Assembly: GCF_023078495.1 (NCBI RefSeq)
Contig: NZ_CP095742.1
Location: 3,100,001 to 3,164,000 of the forward strand
Length of the DNA: 64,000 nt
DNA from: Luteibacter aegosomatissinici
Lineage (GTDB): Bacteria; Pseudomonadota; Gammaproteobacteria; Xanthomonadales; Rhodanobacteraceae
Direction of reading: 5' to 3'
In this document: positions 31,198 to 35,917 of the stretch, one piece after another
How positions within the stretch are numbered: the stretch's first letter is position 1
How the letters are laid out: each line of letters opens with the position of its first letter
Notes under the pieces: generated by a model
Database searches by the model: none
The model's input: the letters and a program-made list of their open reading frames with translations, nothing else
What the model was told of the DNA's origin: nothing
Program-made: the position numbers and the translations under genes

Positions 31198-31689
31198 TCA
31201 GGGCTCCAGAGCGACCGTGCAATCGATACCCTGGCGGGCCATCTTGGCGTACGGGCAGAGCCGCTCGGTACAACGCACCAGCTCCTCCGCGAGCGGCCGC
31301 GCGACACCGGGCAGGGCAATACGCACATCCGCCACGAGCGTGAACTGGCCGTCCACCGGGTCACGGCCGAACGTGACCCGGGCCTTCACGGCTGCATCCG
31401 GTATGGCAATCGAGGAACGCTCGGCGAGCAACGTAAGCGCGCCGTGGAAGCACGCGGCGAATCCCGCCGCGAACAGTTGCTCGGGATTCGTCCCACCACC
31501 AGGGCCACCGAGGGCCATGGGCAGGCGCAACGCGACATCCAGTTCGCCGTCGGAAGAACGTGCGATGCCCGATGCCCTCGCGTGGGCGGCAACACCACCT
31601 GTCACGGTGACATCTGCCGTATAGAGCGGCTGGAAGGCATCGCCGTGGTACCGGTCGAGGAAAGAAACGTGGGGCGCCCTGGGCTCCAT
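31198..31689 (-). CDS. ohr: Organic hydroperoxide resistance protein (Ohr/OsmC family)
   Basis: A 163-aa thiol peroxidase that reduces organic peroxides. The two redox Cys are in 'AACFHGALTLLAERS' and 'RCTERLCPYAKMARQG', the Ohr pattern. The N-terminal 'PLYTADVTVTGGVAAHARAS' fits Ohr rather than OsmC. The start at 31689 follows a strong GGGGAGG; an in-frame start 60 nt upstream would run into the neighbouring gene. It lies 17 bp after the NmrA-like reductase and is probably the last gene of the operon driven from the ECF41 promoter at 33.83 kb. Confidence 0.93.
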   Translation of the reverse strand: MEPRAPHVSFLDRYHGDAFQPLYTADVTVTGGVAAHARASGIARSSDGELDVALRLPMALGGPGGGTNPEQLFAAGFAACFHGALTLLAERSSIAIPDAAVKARVTFGRDPVDGQFTLVADVRIALPGVARPLAEELVRCTERLCPYAKMARQGIDCTVALEP

Positions 31690-31706: not shown

Positions 31707-32474
31707 TCAGGCTGCGCCGTGCGCGCCTGCGGATTGGGCGGCCAGCCACGCATCGAGACCCACCTTGCCCAGGTGCGCGCCTGGGCCAGGTAGCAGCGAA
31801 CCCCAGCTGATGACGCCCCCGAAATACGGTGCGCCGGGATCGCCTTTCACCTGGCGTGCGTCGCCCTTGGCGCGCAGATAGCGCCGCACGAGTTCGTCCA
31901 TGGGGAGGGCCTCTGGCCCAGCAATCTCGGTGAACCCGTTGATGGGCGGGGCCATGGCTGCGTCGGCGACGGCGGCGGCGACCTCCTCGGCGGCAATAGG
32001 CTGGATGCCTCCGGTCGATACGGAAATAGCCGGGCCCTGCCCCGCCTCGTTGGCGATACCGCCTGTGAATTCGAGGAACTGCGTGGCGCGCACGATGCTG
32101 TAGGGCACCCCCGCGTCACGAATGATCCCTTCCTGCGCATCCTTGGCCGCAAAGTAGGCGTTGCCCGGCTTGCGGTCGGTACCCACGATGGACAAGGCCA
32201 CGTGATGCGCCACGCCAGCCTTGCGCTCCGCCGCGGCGATGTTGTGCCCGGCGGTGGTAAAGAAATGCATCACGTCATCCGCGGCGAAGGATGGCGAGTT
32301 CGCCACATCCACCACGGTATGCACGCCCGCCATCGCGGCATCGAGCCCTTCCCCCGTAAGCGTATTCACACCAGTGGAAGGTGCCGCGGCCACCGCGTCG
32401 TGGCCGTGTTCACGCAGGCGCGCGACCACCTTGCTGCCGATAAGGCCGGTACCGCCGATAACAAGGATCTTCAT
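31707..32474 (-). CDS. NAD(P)-binding NmrA/atypical-SDR family protein
   Basis: A 255-aa Rossmann protein with 'KILVIGGTGLIGSKVVARL' at the N-terminus (GxxGxxG), a 'VHTVVDVANSPSF' strand and 'HHVALSIVGTDRKPGNAYFAAK'. The Tyr-x3-Lys pair of classical SDRs appears only as YFAAK. It belongs to the NmrA/TMR-like group, members of which act as oxidoreductases or redox sensors. ECF41 sigma factors are typically linked to a carboxymuconolactone decarboxylase, an oxidoreductase or an epimerase, so this gene fits the second slot of that circuit. Confidence 0.88.
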   Translation of the reverse strand: MKILVIGGTGLIGSKVVARLREHGHDAVAAAPSTGVNTLTGEGLDAAMAGVHTVVDVANSPSFAADDVMHFFTTAGHNIAAAERKAGVAHHVALSIVGTDRKPGNAYFAAKDAQEGIIRDAGVPYSIVRATQFLEFTGGIANEAGQGPAISVSTGGIQPIAAEEVAAAVADAAMAPPINGFTEIAGPEALPMDELVRRYLRAKGDARQVKGDPGAPYFGGVISWGSLLPGPGAHLGKVGLDAWLAAQSAGAHGAA

Positions 32475-32548: not shown

Positions 32549-33556
32549 TCACCGTGTTGCCGCGGATGCACCAATGCGATTGTCGTCACCGCATTCAAAA
32601 TCGAGCGAGCGGATGGCTGCGATCATGTAATCCACGAACACGCGAATACGCGAGGGCAGTTGCTGGCGGCTCAGGTAGCACACGTAGTGCCCACGGTCTT
32701 CCGGGGCATGCTGGGGAAGGCATGCGACCAGGCGCCCCGCCTTCATGTGGTCACACACCTGGTAACCGGCAAGCTGCGCCAGCCCTTCCCCATCCAGGGC
32801 CGCCTGCAACACCAGGTCGGCATCGTTGAACGACAGCATGGAGGCCGGGCGCACTTTCTTGTCACGGCCATCCACGCGGAATTCCCAGTCGAACGTGCGC
32901 CCATTTGTCAGCCGGTAACCCAGGCATTCGTGCGCGGCAATGTCATCCAGCGAACGGGGCGCGGGGTACCGCGCCAGGTAGCCGGGCGAGGCACACAGGA
33001 ACATGCGCATCGGCACGATCTGCCGCGCGATCACCTGGCTATCCTCCATGCGGCCATTGCGGAAGGCGACATCCACATGATCGGTGATGAAATCCGCCGG
33101 GCGGTCATCCAGCAGCAGCTCCACGGCGACATCGGGGTAAGCGGCGCGGAAGCCATGAAGCAGCGGCGCCACCACCTTGCGGCCAAACCCGACCGCGGCA
33201 CTGATGCGCAGCCGCCCGCGCGGCGGGCCCTCACGCAGCTCACGCATGTCCTCCAGCGCCTGGGCGATTCGCTCGACGCCTGGCTGGCAGTTCTCGAAAA
33301 ACAACGAGCCCTCCGGCGTGAGCGACGTGCTGCGCGTGGTGCGTGAAAACAGCCGTGCACCGACCTGTTGCTCCAGCTTCTGCACGCTACGACTCACCGC
33401 GCTACGACCGATGCCAAGGCGATCGGCGGCACGTGCGAAGCTTCCTTCGTTGACGACCGCAATAAAGGCGATCACGCCGGCGTAACTGGCGGAGAAGCTC
33501 GAGGTGAGCGCATCGGCACCCACGCGGGCGGCTTGTGGGAAGGGCGTGACGTTCAT
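32549..33556 (-). CDS. LysR-family transcriptional regulator
   Basis: A 335-aa LTTR with an unusually long N-terminal extension (about 25 residues) before the winged helix 'AGVIAFIAVVNEGSFARAADRLGIGRSAVSRSVQKLEQ'. The effector-binding domain contains 'PRGRLRISAAVGFGRKVVAPLLHGF'. The ATG at 33556 overlaps the stop of the region-4 sigma fragment (ATGA), which selects this start over an upstream in-frame one. It probably controls redox or detoxification genes nearby. Confidence 0.9.
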   Translation of the reverse strand: MNVTPFPQAARVGADALTSSFSASYAGVIAFIAVVNEGSFARAADRLGIGRSAVSRSVQKLEQQVGARLFSRTTRSTSLTPEGSLFFENCQPGVERIAQALEDMRELREGPPRGRLRISAAVGFGRKVVAPLLHGFRAAYPDVAVELLLDDRPADFITDHVDVAFRNGRMEDSQVIARQIVPMRMFLCASPGYLARYPAPRSLDDIAAHECLGYRLTNGRTFDWEFRVDGRDKKVRPASMLSFNDADLVLQAALDGEGLAQLAGYQVCDHMKAGRLVACLPQHAPEDRGHYVCYLSRQQLPSRIRVFVDYMIAAIRSLDFECGDDNRIGASAATR

Positions 33557-33822
33557 GGCGTGTCTCCATGGGTGCCGGCGTGCAGGGCACGCAGGCGCGA
33601 TCGGGCGTCGTCGATCAGCTGGCGGCATGCCCGTCCATCGCGACCGAGCAAGGCGGCAACTTCATCAAGGGGCTTGCCAAGCACATCGCTCAGCAGGAAG
33701 GCGAGGCGAGGCAGCGGGGGCACCTGCTGCAGGGCCGCCTGGAACTCGGTCCAGACACGGTCGCACCCAACCTGGCTGTAGGCGTCTGCGATGGGCGACG
33801 GCATGGTGTCGTGGGTATCCAT
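33553..33822 (-). CDS. Region-4-only sigma-like protein under an ECF41 promoter
   Basis: 89 aa from the ATG at 33822 (in-frame alternatives at 33804 and 33864). Most of it aligns to region 4 of the ECF41 sigma encoded at 35027: 'FQAALQQVPPLPRLAFLLSD' against 'FLALLERLAPEARAAFLLRE', and 'GRDGRACRQLIDDARSRL' against 'GKSEAACRQLVHRAREQL'. The -35-recognition helix core ACRQL is the same. Region 2 (core binding and -10 reading) is absent. It is not a decayed fragment of a larger frame: it has its own promoter (CGTC lies 8 nt before the ATG) and is coupled to the LysR gene by ATGA. It could bind TGTCACA boxes without initiating, acting as a competitor or repressor; that is inference. Confidence 0.75.
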   Translation of the reverse strand: MDTHDTMPSPIADAYSQVGCDRVWTEFQAALQQVPPLPRLAFLLSDVLGKPLDEVAALLGRDGRACRQLIDDARSRLRALHAGTHGDTP

Positions 33823-33830
33823 GCCTATCA

Positions 33831-33857
33831 GACGAGGCAGCCCCCGGCGTTGTGACA
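33831..33857 (-). promoter_or_regulatory. ECF41-type promoter (leftward)
   Basis: The minus strand reads TGTCACA-N16-CGTC, an exact match to the published ECF41 consensus. CGTC ends 8 nt before the ATG of the region-4 protein, so the transcript would be leaderless or nearly so. The -35 box sits in the odd palindrome GTTGTGACAAC. Confidence 0.8.
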
Positions 33858-33985
33858 ACGGCATTGGTGCGTTCAACGCAACACCGTGCAGACGCCGTCG
33901 TGGCTACCGAACACGGGAAGCGGAGCCTAGCTTGTACCCGTCCCGGCACACCGGGCCCTCCCTTCCCTACCGCAAGGATCCACCC

Positions 33986-34468
33986 ATGAGCGACCGTCTC
34001 GATTACCAGCTGCAATCGCCCGAGTTCACCAGGAAGCTGGTCGAACTTTCGATGGCGCAGCGCAAGGGCAGCAGCATCGAGCCCGGCCTGAAGCACATGC
34101 TCGACCTGCGTGCCTCACAGATAAACGGCTGCGGCTTTTGCGTCGATATGCATGTCAAGGAAGCTATCGCTGGCGGCGAGCGCCAGCTGCGCCTGCACCA
34201 CGTGGCCATCTGGCGCGAATCGGACCAGTTCACCCCGCGCGAACGTGCCGCGCTGGCGTATACCGAAGCCCTGACCCACCTCAAACCGGAAGGCATCACG
34301 GACGAGCTCTACAAGACCGTACGCGAGCAGTTCTCGGAAAAGGAGCTCTCCGACCTGACCTTCGCAATCATGACCATCAACGCCTGGAATCGCGTCAACG
34401 TGGCGTTCCACACCGTGCCGGGCTCGCTGGATAAGGCCTACGGACTGGACAAGGTCGCCGTCGGCTGA
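33986..34468 (+). CDS. Carboxymuconolactone decarboxylase / AhpD-like protein
   Basis: A 160-aa CMD-family protein with the AhpD-type redox motif 'NGCGFCVDMHVKEA' (CxxC plus His), 'FTPRERAALAYTEALT' and 'NAWNRVNVAFH'. Members with CxxC act as alkylhydroperoxidases. ATG 33986 follows AAGGATCCACCC; longer in-frame starts cross the divergent promoter region and are unlikely. The cupin gene is 28 bp downstream. CMD genes are the commonest partners and targets of ECF41 sigma factors, although I find no exact ECF41 promoter directly upstream on this strand. Confidence 0.93.
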   Translation: MSDRLDYQLQSPEFTRKLVELSMAQRKGSSIEPGLKHMLDLRASQINGCGFCVDMHVKEAIAGGERQLRLHHVAIWRESDQFTPRERAALAYTEALTHLKPEGITDELYKTVREQFSEKELSDLTFAIMTINAWNRVNVAFHTVPGSLDKAYGLDKVAVG

Positions 34469-34495
34469 TCGCACCTACTTACTGAGGACGTGTCT

Positions 34496-34924
34496 ATGAA
34501 CGCCATCTACAAGATCGCCGCGTTGGGTTTGCTCGTTGCCACAGGCAGCGCGCTGGCACACGGTGACGAACATGCACCCACGACGGTGCAGCCGAAGGTC
34601 ACCCTGCTCAGCAACCACGACATGCCCGACGTGCCGGGCAAGGAAATCACCACCATTACCGTCGACTACCCACCGGGCGTGGTCGAGCACGTGCACCACC
34701 ACGACGCCAACGCCATCGTCTACGTGCTGGAAGGCAACATCATCGAAGGTGTGCAAGGCCAGCCGGAGCAACACCTGAAGGCCGGCGATACCTTCTACGA
34801 AGGCCCCAACGACACCCACACCATCGGCCGCAACGCCAGCCAGACCGAGCCTGCCCGGTTCGTGGTCTTCATCGTCCACGACAAGGGCAAGCCCATCGTG
34901 CTGCCGGGCGCCAAGGGTCGGTAA
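34496..34924 (+). CDS. Exported cupin-domain protein
   Basis: A 142-aa single-domain cupin with a signal peptide (NAIYKIAALGLLVATGSALA, cleaved before HGDEHAP). Cupin motif 1 is 'VVEHVHHHDANAIVYVLEG' (three metal-binding His plus a downstream acidic position); motif 2 is 'GPNDTHTIGRNAS'. The start ATG follows TGAGGACGTGTCT. It is co-directional with and 28 bp from the CMD gene. Periplasmic cupins in such loci often bind or inactivate small reactive metabolites, but no substrate can be named. Confidence 0.88.
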   Translation: MNAIYKIAALGLLVATGSALAHGDEHAPTTVQPKVTLLSNHDMPDVPGKEITTITVDYPPGVVEHVHHHDANAIVYVLEGNIIEGVQGQPEQHLKAGDTFYEGPNDTHTIGRNASQTEPARFVVFIVHDKGKPIVLPGAKGR

Positions 34925-34990
34925 GCGCTCCTGCGAGGCGCCGCTTCGGTCAAAAAGCGCAGGAACTTGCTGGACGGCCGTGCAGGCTCG

Positions 34991-35017
34991 TGTCACAACT
35001 CACAGGGCTGATACGTC
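34991..35017 (+). promoter_or_regulatory. ECF41-type promoter of the ECF41 sigma gene (autoregulatory)
   Basis: TGTCACA-N16-CGTC on the plus strand, exact consensus, with CGTC ending 9 nt before the sigma ATG. The geometry is almost the same as the leftward copy at 33831-33857. Confidence 0.82.
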
Positions 35018-35026
35018 TGGAGTGAC

Positions 35027-35917
35027 ATGAGCACCGCTACCGCCACCTTCACCGCCCTGCGCCCCCGGCTGCACGGCATTGCCTACCGCATGCTCGGCTC
35101 AGTGCCCGAGGCCGAGGATGTGGTGCAGGACGTGTGGCTGCGCTGGCACGGGGCGGATGCGGAGCGGATCGAGAACGCCGAGGCGTGGCTGGTGGCGGCC
35201 ACCACCCGCCGCGCCATCGACCAGTTGCGGGCGGCGCGGACCCGACGCGAGCACTATGTAGGCATCTGGCTCCCCGAGCCGGTGCTCACCGACGATAGCG
35301 CGACACCGGAAGACCTGCAGGAGCTGGCCAGCGATGTATCCGTGGCGTTCCTTGCCCTGCTCGAGCGCCTTGCCCCCGAGGCCCGCGCGGCGTTCCTCCT
35401 GCGTGAGGTGTTCGACGAGGATTACCCCGAGATCGCCCACGTACTGGGCAAGAGCGAGGCCGCCTGCCGGCAGCTCGTTCACCGTGCCAGGGAACAACTG
35501 CGCGACGAGCGGCCCCGGTTCGAGGTGAACCGGGCCCTGCATGCGGACCTGGTGCAACGCTTCGCCGGGGCCATGGCCAGTGGCGATTTCCGCGGCATGC
35601 GCGAGATCCTCGCACCGGATGCCGTGCTGATGGGCGACGGTGGCGGGTTTGTCTCCAGCTTCCCCAAGCCAATGGAAGGGGGTGTGCGCATCGCCCAGTT
35701 GCTTTACGCGCCCAGCATCCGCAACGACCGCGGCATGCGCGTGGAAGTCGCCAGCGTCAATGGCGAACTGGCGGTACTGCGCTACTTCGGTGGCGCACTG
35801 GAATCGGTACAGACCTTCGCAACCGAAGGCGGCCGGATCACGGCGATCCACGTACAACGCAATCCTGAGAAGCTGTCGCGCTTCGTCGCAGGCCAGGCAG
35901 GATTCAAGGCCGTATAA
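35027..35917 (+). CDS. ECF41 sigma factor with fused SnoaL-like domain
   Basis: A 296-aa SigJ-like ECF sigma. Region 2 is at about residues 8-75 ('LHGIAYRMLGSVPEAEDVVQDVWLRW') and region 4 at about 105-160 ('AFLLREVFDEDYPEIAHVLGK', 'ACRQLVHRAREQL'). A C-terminal NTF2/SnoaL-like domain at about 165-290 replaces a separate anti-sigma factor. The group hallmarks DGGG (204-207) and NP(D/E)KL (279-283) are both present. It has an ECF41 promoter immediately upstream, so positive autoregulation is expected. The inducer is not known for the group. Confidence 0.95.
   Translation: MSTATATFTALRPRLHGIAYRMLGSVPEAEDVVQDVWLRWHGADAERIENAEAWLVAATTRRAIDQLRAARTRREHYVGIWLPEPVLTDDSATPEDLQELASDVSVAFLALLERLAPEARAAFLLREVFDEDYPEIAHVLGKSEAACRQLVHRAREQLRDERPRFEVNRALHADLVQRFAGAMASGDFRGMREILAPDAVLMGDGGGFVSSFPKPMEGGVRIAQLLYAPSIRNDRGMRVEVASVNGELAVLRYFGGALESVQTFATEGGRITAIHVQRNPEKLSRFVAGQAGFKAV

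Follow-up and report, generated by a model that had tools for sequence, protein, structure and literature searches.

A stand-alone sigma region 4 protein conserved beside an ECF41 sigma factor in two families of one bacterial order

Small phage proteins such as AsiA/MotA and gp33 act at sigma region 4 (sigma4) or at its beta-flap docking site. PhyR resembles a sigma factor whose DNA- and RNA polymerase-facing surfaces have degenerated, and it acts by protein contact; it has a receiver domain, and its target is the anti-sigma factor NepR, which it sequesters (PMC8999054, PMC8103513; this and the other papers are cited from excerpts). In SigO-RsoA of Bacillus subtilis, sigma regions reside on separate small proteins, and the two accounts differ on which domain is assigned to which subunit (PMC8103513, PMC10141391). 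ECF41 sigma factors are described as being controlled by a fused C-terminal domain, with tuning that is poorly known (PMC3426412, PMC8999054), and as using TGTCACA/CGTC promoters with a spacer of 16 ± 1 (Wecke et al. 2012, PMC3426412). Here we describe a locus in a 64,000-nucleotide (nt) stretch of the Luteibacter aegosomatissinici genome (the window, 3100001–3164000 of a 4.99-Mb single-contig genome), in which an ECF41 sigma factor neighbours an operon whose first gene encodes a free sigma4 domain of 89 residues, referred to below as the half-sigma. The features on which the argument turns are these:

33553–33822, minus strand: half-sigma, 89 residues, region 4 only; begins with the ATG at 33822 and ends in an ATGA overlap with the LysR start; recognised by Pfam Sigma70_r4_2, dN/dS (the ratio of nonsynonymous to synonymous substitution rates), fixed start and AF2 fold.
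33831–33857, minus strand: TGTCACA-N16-CGTC, the ECF41-type promoter in front of the half-sigma operon; exact match, conserved in 24/24 loci.
32549–33556, minus strand: LysR-type regulator, encoded second in the operon; Pfam HTH_1 and LysR_substrate.
34991–35017, plus strand: ECF41-type promoter of the ECF41 gene; exact match, 9 nt before the ECF41 ATG.
35027–35917, plus strand: ECF41 sigma factor, 296 residues, with sigma2, sigma4 and a C-terminal extension; TIGR02957 and Pfam.

Both promoters had been claimed as exact consensus copies in a preliminary description of this stretch, and both are present, mutually divergent. When spacers of 14–18 were allowed, the window held two sites compared with a mean of 0.24 in shuffled sequence, and two were reached in 1/100 shuffles. 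A scan of the whole genome, made with the exact TGTCACA-N16-CGTC pattern only, returned three sites, and the reversed control pattern returned none. The third site lies inside an open reading frame (ORF) of 405 amino acids and is probably a chance match, and we therefore rejected a larger ECF41 regulon built on exact sites. By its consensus, ECF41 may drive both window promoters. The locus resembles the circuits in the cited excerpt of PMC3426412 in its promoter consensus, in its CMD-oxidoreductase-epimerase (COE) neighbours, in its cupin gene, of a kind present there at a few loci, and in the promoter position, which there is often before ECF41 and partner genes. It differs in that the targets reported in that excerpt are only COE genes and ECF41, with no region-4-only member and no LysR. 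No paper on a region-4-only ECF41 partner was found by title or opening of the abstract, in a search that left most subscription literature outside, so novelty in print is not established.

Our tentative reading, held with somewhat less than even confidence, is that the half-sigma is a mimic of the sigma4 domain that exerts protein-level feedback on ECF41. It would be a stand-alone sigma4 domain, encoded first in an operon that may be switched on by ECF41 itself, and would dock, as a mimic of ECF41 region 4, on surfaces that sigma4 normally meets: the sigma2 domain, the linker or the SnoaL-like extension of ECF41, its presumed partner. Docking would adjust ECF41 activity and create a feedback loop of either sign; translation of the half-sigma probably begins at the transcription start or immediately beside it, and would be coupled to that of LysR. 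We favour this reading because the protein is conserved and selected, apparently with one origin, has an ECF41-type promoter in 24/24 loci, and keeps the sigma4 scaffold with changed DNA-facing residues. A conserved regulon member consisting of a sigma4 domain alone is a concrete feedback candidate for ECF41 and, if the reading is true, control of a C-terminally extended ECF sigma factor would reach beyond its fused domain and its promoter. The anatomy and distribution of the locus are well supported; the functional readings are drawn from sequence.

The 89-residue protein had been described as homologous to region 4 only, with region 2 missing, and the profile matches bear this out. It matched Pfam Sigma70_r4_2 at 36.8 bits (cut-off 25.7, residues 26–77) and no models other than those of region 4, so that no region 2 was found, and its best NCBIfam match was the region 4 portion of a SigJ-type model. 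The only other good match to it in the genome was the neighbouring ECF41 (E 1e-7; the next was at 0.29). An AF2 model showed four helices, with a predicted local distance difference test score (pLDDT) of 80.9 and a predicted template modelling score of 0.61. Its top Foldseek matches were sigma factors and sigma4 domains, with template modelling scores by target of 0.84 (SigR4) and 0.91 (SigD4) and, for so short a domain, no E value below 0.001. The ORF list gives 107 residues from a TTG; conservation favours the ATG at 33822. The PhyR sigma-like model matched as well (28 bits, cut-off 27), which we count for mimicry because PhyR is a known sigma mimic. Unlike PhyR, the protein gave no match to a receiver domain in Pfam or NCBIfam, and no anti-sigma factor was seen at the window locus. 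The pair also differs from SigO-RsoA, in which each part supplies what the other lacks: the ECF41 beside the half-sigma has both domains by itself, matching Pfam Sigma70_r2 at 52.6 bits and Sigma70_r4_2 at 55.2 bits, above the cut-offs. Unlike the phage proteins, the half-sigma is itself a sigma4 homologue, chromosomal and inside the sigma factor's own presumed regulon.

Co-occurrence with ECF41 in relatives, suggested earlier as a check, was found to be close. The half-sigma stands with an adjacent ECF41 in 13/23 genomes of the genus, the window genome included. Three genus loci have ECF41 without it (genomes G118, G120 and G130), and the ECF41 of G062 is more distant (45% identity). The remaining 6/23 genomes gave no match to either protein, and an ECF41 search at E 1e-20 was also empty; completeness is only 80% for one of the six (G123). 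In 398 genomes of the order, a profile search found at least 11 further half-sigma loci in a second family, 10 of them with an adjacent ECF41; this count is a lower bound, among the matches listed. In the 24 loci combined (13 from the genus and 11 from the second family), LysR lies downstream in 24/24 and ECF41 is adjacent in 23/24. Taking the best 80 ECF41 loci from named genomes among the matches listed, we found a half-sigma in all four Lysobacter/Stenotrophomonas loci (L128, L129, L131 and L138). The profile detected the small half in three of these and in no other of the 80; that of L128 came from a promoter-anchored reading, and in L131 the frame from the ATG 8 nt after the −10 element (the N8 ATG) stops after 14 codons, yet the profile detects the domain. 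For 22 of the 80 the neighbours were tabulated, and several loci from Burkholderia-like genera have ECF41 with varying subsets of CMD, cupin, LysR, NmrA and Ohr genes and no small half. Outside the order no halves were seen in 369 genomes of the class and 398 of the phylum, in searches that returned matches to E 1e-9 and 1e-8 only and would miss a half within a long frame; the listed matches there have open frames of at least 191 amino acids.

The earlier case also depended on conservation of the ORF in relatives, and the ORF proved both conserved and under purifying selection. In 10 close genus pairs its dN/dS was 0.15–0.32 (0.09–0.29 for its region 4), and that of ECF41 region 4 was 0.03–0.08; judged by these ratios, the half-sigma is constrained, yet evolves faster than ECF41 region 4. 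The ratio of nonsynonymous to synonymous differences (pN/pS) in eight equal-length pairs was 0.24–0.35 in the coding frame and at least 0.83 in other frames, the exceptions being a single +2 value (0.57, in a pair that had 11 differences) and the antisense −2 frame, at 0.32–0.74. A chance ORF or artefact was rejected on this frame-specific selection, the fixed start position and synteny. A general pseudogene was rejected on the same grounds, despite loss of the domain in G118 and G420, the early stop in L131 and a G345 copy without a nearby stop.

In a tree of halves and ECF41 proteins, built on few columns, with five ECF41 rows lacking the cutting motif dropped and a warning of long branches, the 24 halves formed one clade (100/97) divided by family. 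A recent duplication of the neighbouring ECF41 is not supported, the halves forming a clade apart from the ECF41 rows. Presence of the half-sigma costs six changes on the LysR tree and on the ECF41 tree alike, which makes one origin with losses, or transfer, likely.

The start of the gene is fixed. In 24/24 loci its promoter reads GT[C/A]ACA-N16-CG[T/A]C-N8-ATG, with the ATG exactly 8 nt after the −10 element; the first −35 base is T in 18, the −35 element is TGTAACA in one and the −10 element is CGAC in three. ECF41 target starts were mapped with an untranslated leader of 22/23 nt; for these genes Table 5 of the same paper, cited from an excerpt, has 31 and 32 nt (PMC3426412). If the table counted from the end of the −10 element, the start site would fall 8–10 nt downstream of that element, which at the half-sigma promoter coincides with the ATG or adjoins it. 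Because the ATG is fixed at this distance in all 24 loci, the half-sigma mRNA is probably leaderless, and translation without a leader from ECF41 promoters becomes directly testable. At the other end, by our reading, the half-sigma stop and the LysR start overlap as ATGA in 17/24 loci; two have a larger overlap (G213 and G300), four have a gap of 3–10 nt, and the half in G345 has no nearby stop.

This geometry also suits an explanation in which the gene is a leader ORF or a partner of LysR: its main role would be to initiate translation on a near-leaderless ECF41 transcript, passing the ribosomes on to LysR, or its product would work with LysR, the sigma4 fold being inherited from an ancestral ECF41-type gene. 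The strict adjacency to LysR and the common ATGA overlap keep this model alive, and two loci that lost the domain retain a short ORF at the N8 start (7 codons in G118, 30 in G420). However, the amino acid sequence and the sigma4 fold are constrained beyond what a leader needs, and 13 other loci run LysR from an ECF41 promoter without any sigma4-type ORF. We consider the model rather unlikely.

The preliminary description had proposed that the half-sigma occupies TGTCACA boxes in competition with the ECF41 holoenzyme. We therefore compared the DNA-facing residues in an alignment of 24 halves and 26 ECF41 proteins, using the numbering of the window ECF41 with sigmaE equivalents in brackets; the register is our own assignment, supported by a SigE alignment, and the sigma4 DNA contacts of sigmaE and SigW are those in the cited excerpt of the SigW paper (PMC6713349). 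Three residues that are nearly invariant in ECF41 are almost entirely lost from the halves: H152 (F175) is kept in 1/24, with D or E in 17/24, R153 (R176) in 1/24 and R126 (R149) in 0/24. Basic residues at the five arginine equivalents fall from 3.85 per protein in ECF41 to 2.0 in the halves, and the recognition-helix positions 149, 152 and 153 gain acidic residues, from 0 to 1.25 per protein. The window half has DD where ECF41 has HR. The recognition-helix core ACRQL, said earlier to be conserved, stands in part: C is kept in 24/24 and R in 23/24, and the window copy keeps CRQL, but Q149 (S172) is kept in only 7/24 overall. Occupancy of the boxes is thus not supported by these residues, and the loss of several of them makes protein contact, rather than reading of TGTCACA DNA, most likely the way in which the half-sigma acts.

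The sigma4 scaffold is retained in the halves, with the equivalents of L112 in 23/24, L115 in 22/24, R120 in 24/24 and L124 in 23/24. By our register, 21/24 carry an acidic residue at the equivalent of SigW E157, described as a sigma2-binding residue in the excerpt of PMC6713349, and a half-specific tryptophan stands in 21/24 at the position of the invariant ECF41 S105. A piece of a sigma factor has thus been retained alone under selection while its DNA-reading residues change. The same pattern would also fit a free sigma4 domain that binds the beta-flap of RNA polymerase and alters holoenzyme formation or promoter use, in the manner of phage proteins that resemble sigma4 or bind the flap, but a general polymerase binder would not usually be expressed from a narrow regulon only, and we regard this as quite unlikely.

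Several observations weigh against the mimic reading. At the DNA-facing surface, R148 (R171) is kept in 23/24 halves, and the equivalent of R/K155 (R178) is an arginine in 19/24 and a histidine in 5/24. Both suit the box competitor, as do the sigma4 fold, the CRQL of the window copy and its region 4 net charge of +2. That charge is shared by G117; the other 11/13 genus halves have −2 to −6, and ECF41 −1 to +1. Loss at contact positions was not significantly above that at other positions (rank test, p=0.13), so that the change extends beyond the DNA contacts and leaves room for some kind of DNA binding. Weighed with the lost arginines and the acidic recognition helix, we still find the competitor improbable, the least probable of the four models; what probability these leave over belongs to something else.

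The other points against it come from the locus itself. The half-sigma directly precedes LysR in 24/24 loci, which fits a role with LysR equally well. One half-LysR operon (L092 in G351) has an intact ECF41-type promoter and no adjacent ECF41; the sole ECF41 match of that genome at E 1e-20 is 42% identical and lies on another contig. A LysR search gave matches in 40/398 order genomes and thereby 22 further LysR loci, of which 14 have an ECF41-type promoter upstream of LysR and 8 showed none. Thirteen of the 14 have no half-sigma: the likely LysR start, for which several loci offer more than one in-frame candidate, lies about 70–90 nt from the −10 element, which leaves no room for a sigma4 gene. 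Two loci have kept ECF41 and LysR and lost the domain: L121 (G420), where a 30-codon ORF remains from the N8 ATG, resembling by our reading both ends of the G300 half, and L074 (G118, in the genus), with a 7-codon ORF there. Given these 13 loci and two remnants, the half-sigma is an optional addition, an accessory to the circuit. In its full form the mimic reading would be that two families of one order keep a free sigma4 domain, split from an ECF41-type sigma factor, as a regulon-encoded mimic that tunes ECF41 by contact and not through promoter DNA, and that is translated from a leaderless mRNA in coupling with a LysR co-regulator; this we regard as possible, though doubtful.

GCCGG...CCGG-type stretches, possibly forming a hairpin, occur in the transcript start region of LysR operons without a half (for example L101, L102, L103, L105 and L106).

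The remaining features of the locus are as follows:

31707–32474, minus strand: NmrA-like NAD(P)-binding protein; scores exceed the cut-offs for Pfam NAD_binding_10 and NmrA.
31198–31689, minus strand: Ohr family peroxiredoxin; TIGR03561, 116.4 bits, cut-off 88.85.
33986–34468, plus strand: CMD/AhpD-like gene, divergent from the half-sigma; Pfam CMD, TIGR00778.
34496–34924, plus strand: cupin protein gene; Pfam Cupin_2.
33863–33886, no strand assigned: GTGTTG-N-CACCAAT element upstream of the −35 element, LysR-box-like by inference from motif conservation.

The leftward operon runs half-sigma, LysR, NmrA-like, Ohr, as had been described and as the Pfam and NCBIfam matches confirm. The CMD and cupin genes, both on the plus strand, occupy the interval between the two promoters, and the CMD and NmrA-like genes are the COE-type neighbours of ECF41. 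The module varies among relatives: the CMD gene is lacking at G117 and G213, G047 has neither NmrA nor Ohr, and the G101 and G345 loci gave no Ohr match.

The GTGTTG-N-CACCAAT element was found in 19/28 half-sigma loci, 3/14 loci without a half and G118, always 4–49 nt upstream of the −35 element. It resembles a LysR site of the T-N11-A type, placed between the divergent operons, through which LysR might be connected with the CMD-cupin side. In G127, G089 and G122 it is displaced or not found within the 75 nt examined, and the half-sigma loci of these genomes (L064, L066 and L067, respectively) have repeat-like stretches with CGGCTCC[CT]ACA just upstream of the −35 element.

The window ECF41 matched TIGR02957 at 367.2 bits (cut-off 323.25, residues 7–286), and the full-length TIGR02957 and SigJ models match it through residue 285–286. 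Its C-terminal extension scored below the cut-offs for SnoaL_2 (18.6 bits, cut-off 27) and DUF4440 (20.1, cut-off 25.2), and its AF2 model was poor (mean pLDDT 67) and unsuited to interface mapping. In the 13/13 half-bearing genus loci its promoter reads GTCAC[A/G]-N16-CGTC-N9-ATG, so that with the ATG 9 nt after the −10 element the ECF41 mRNA may likewise be leaderless. In the second family, 7/10 loci with ECF41 have an ECF41-type promoter close upstream of it, the exceptions being G348, G213 and G300. CGAC replaces CGTC in both promoters of L094 (G411) and L096 (G345), in the half-sigma promoter only of L090 (G379) and in the ECF41 promoter only of L091 (G338), a possible drift in promoter specificity.

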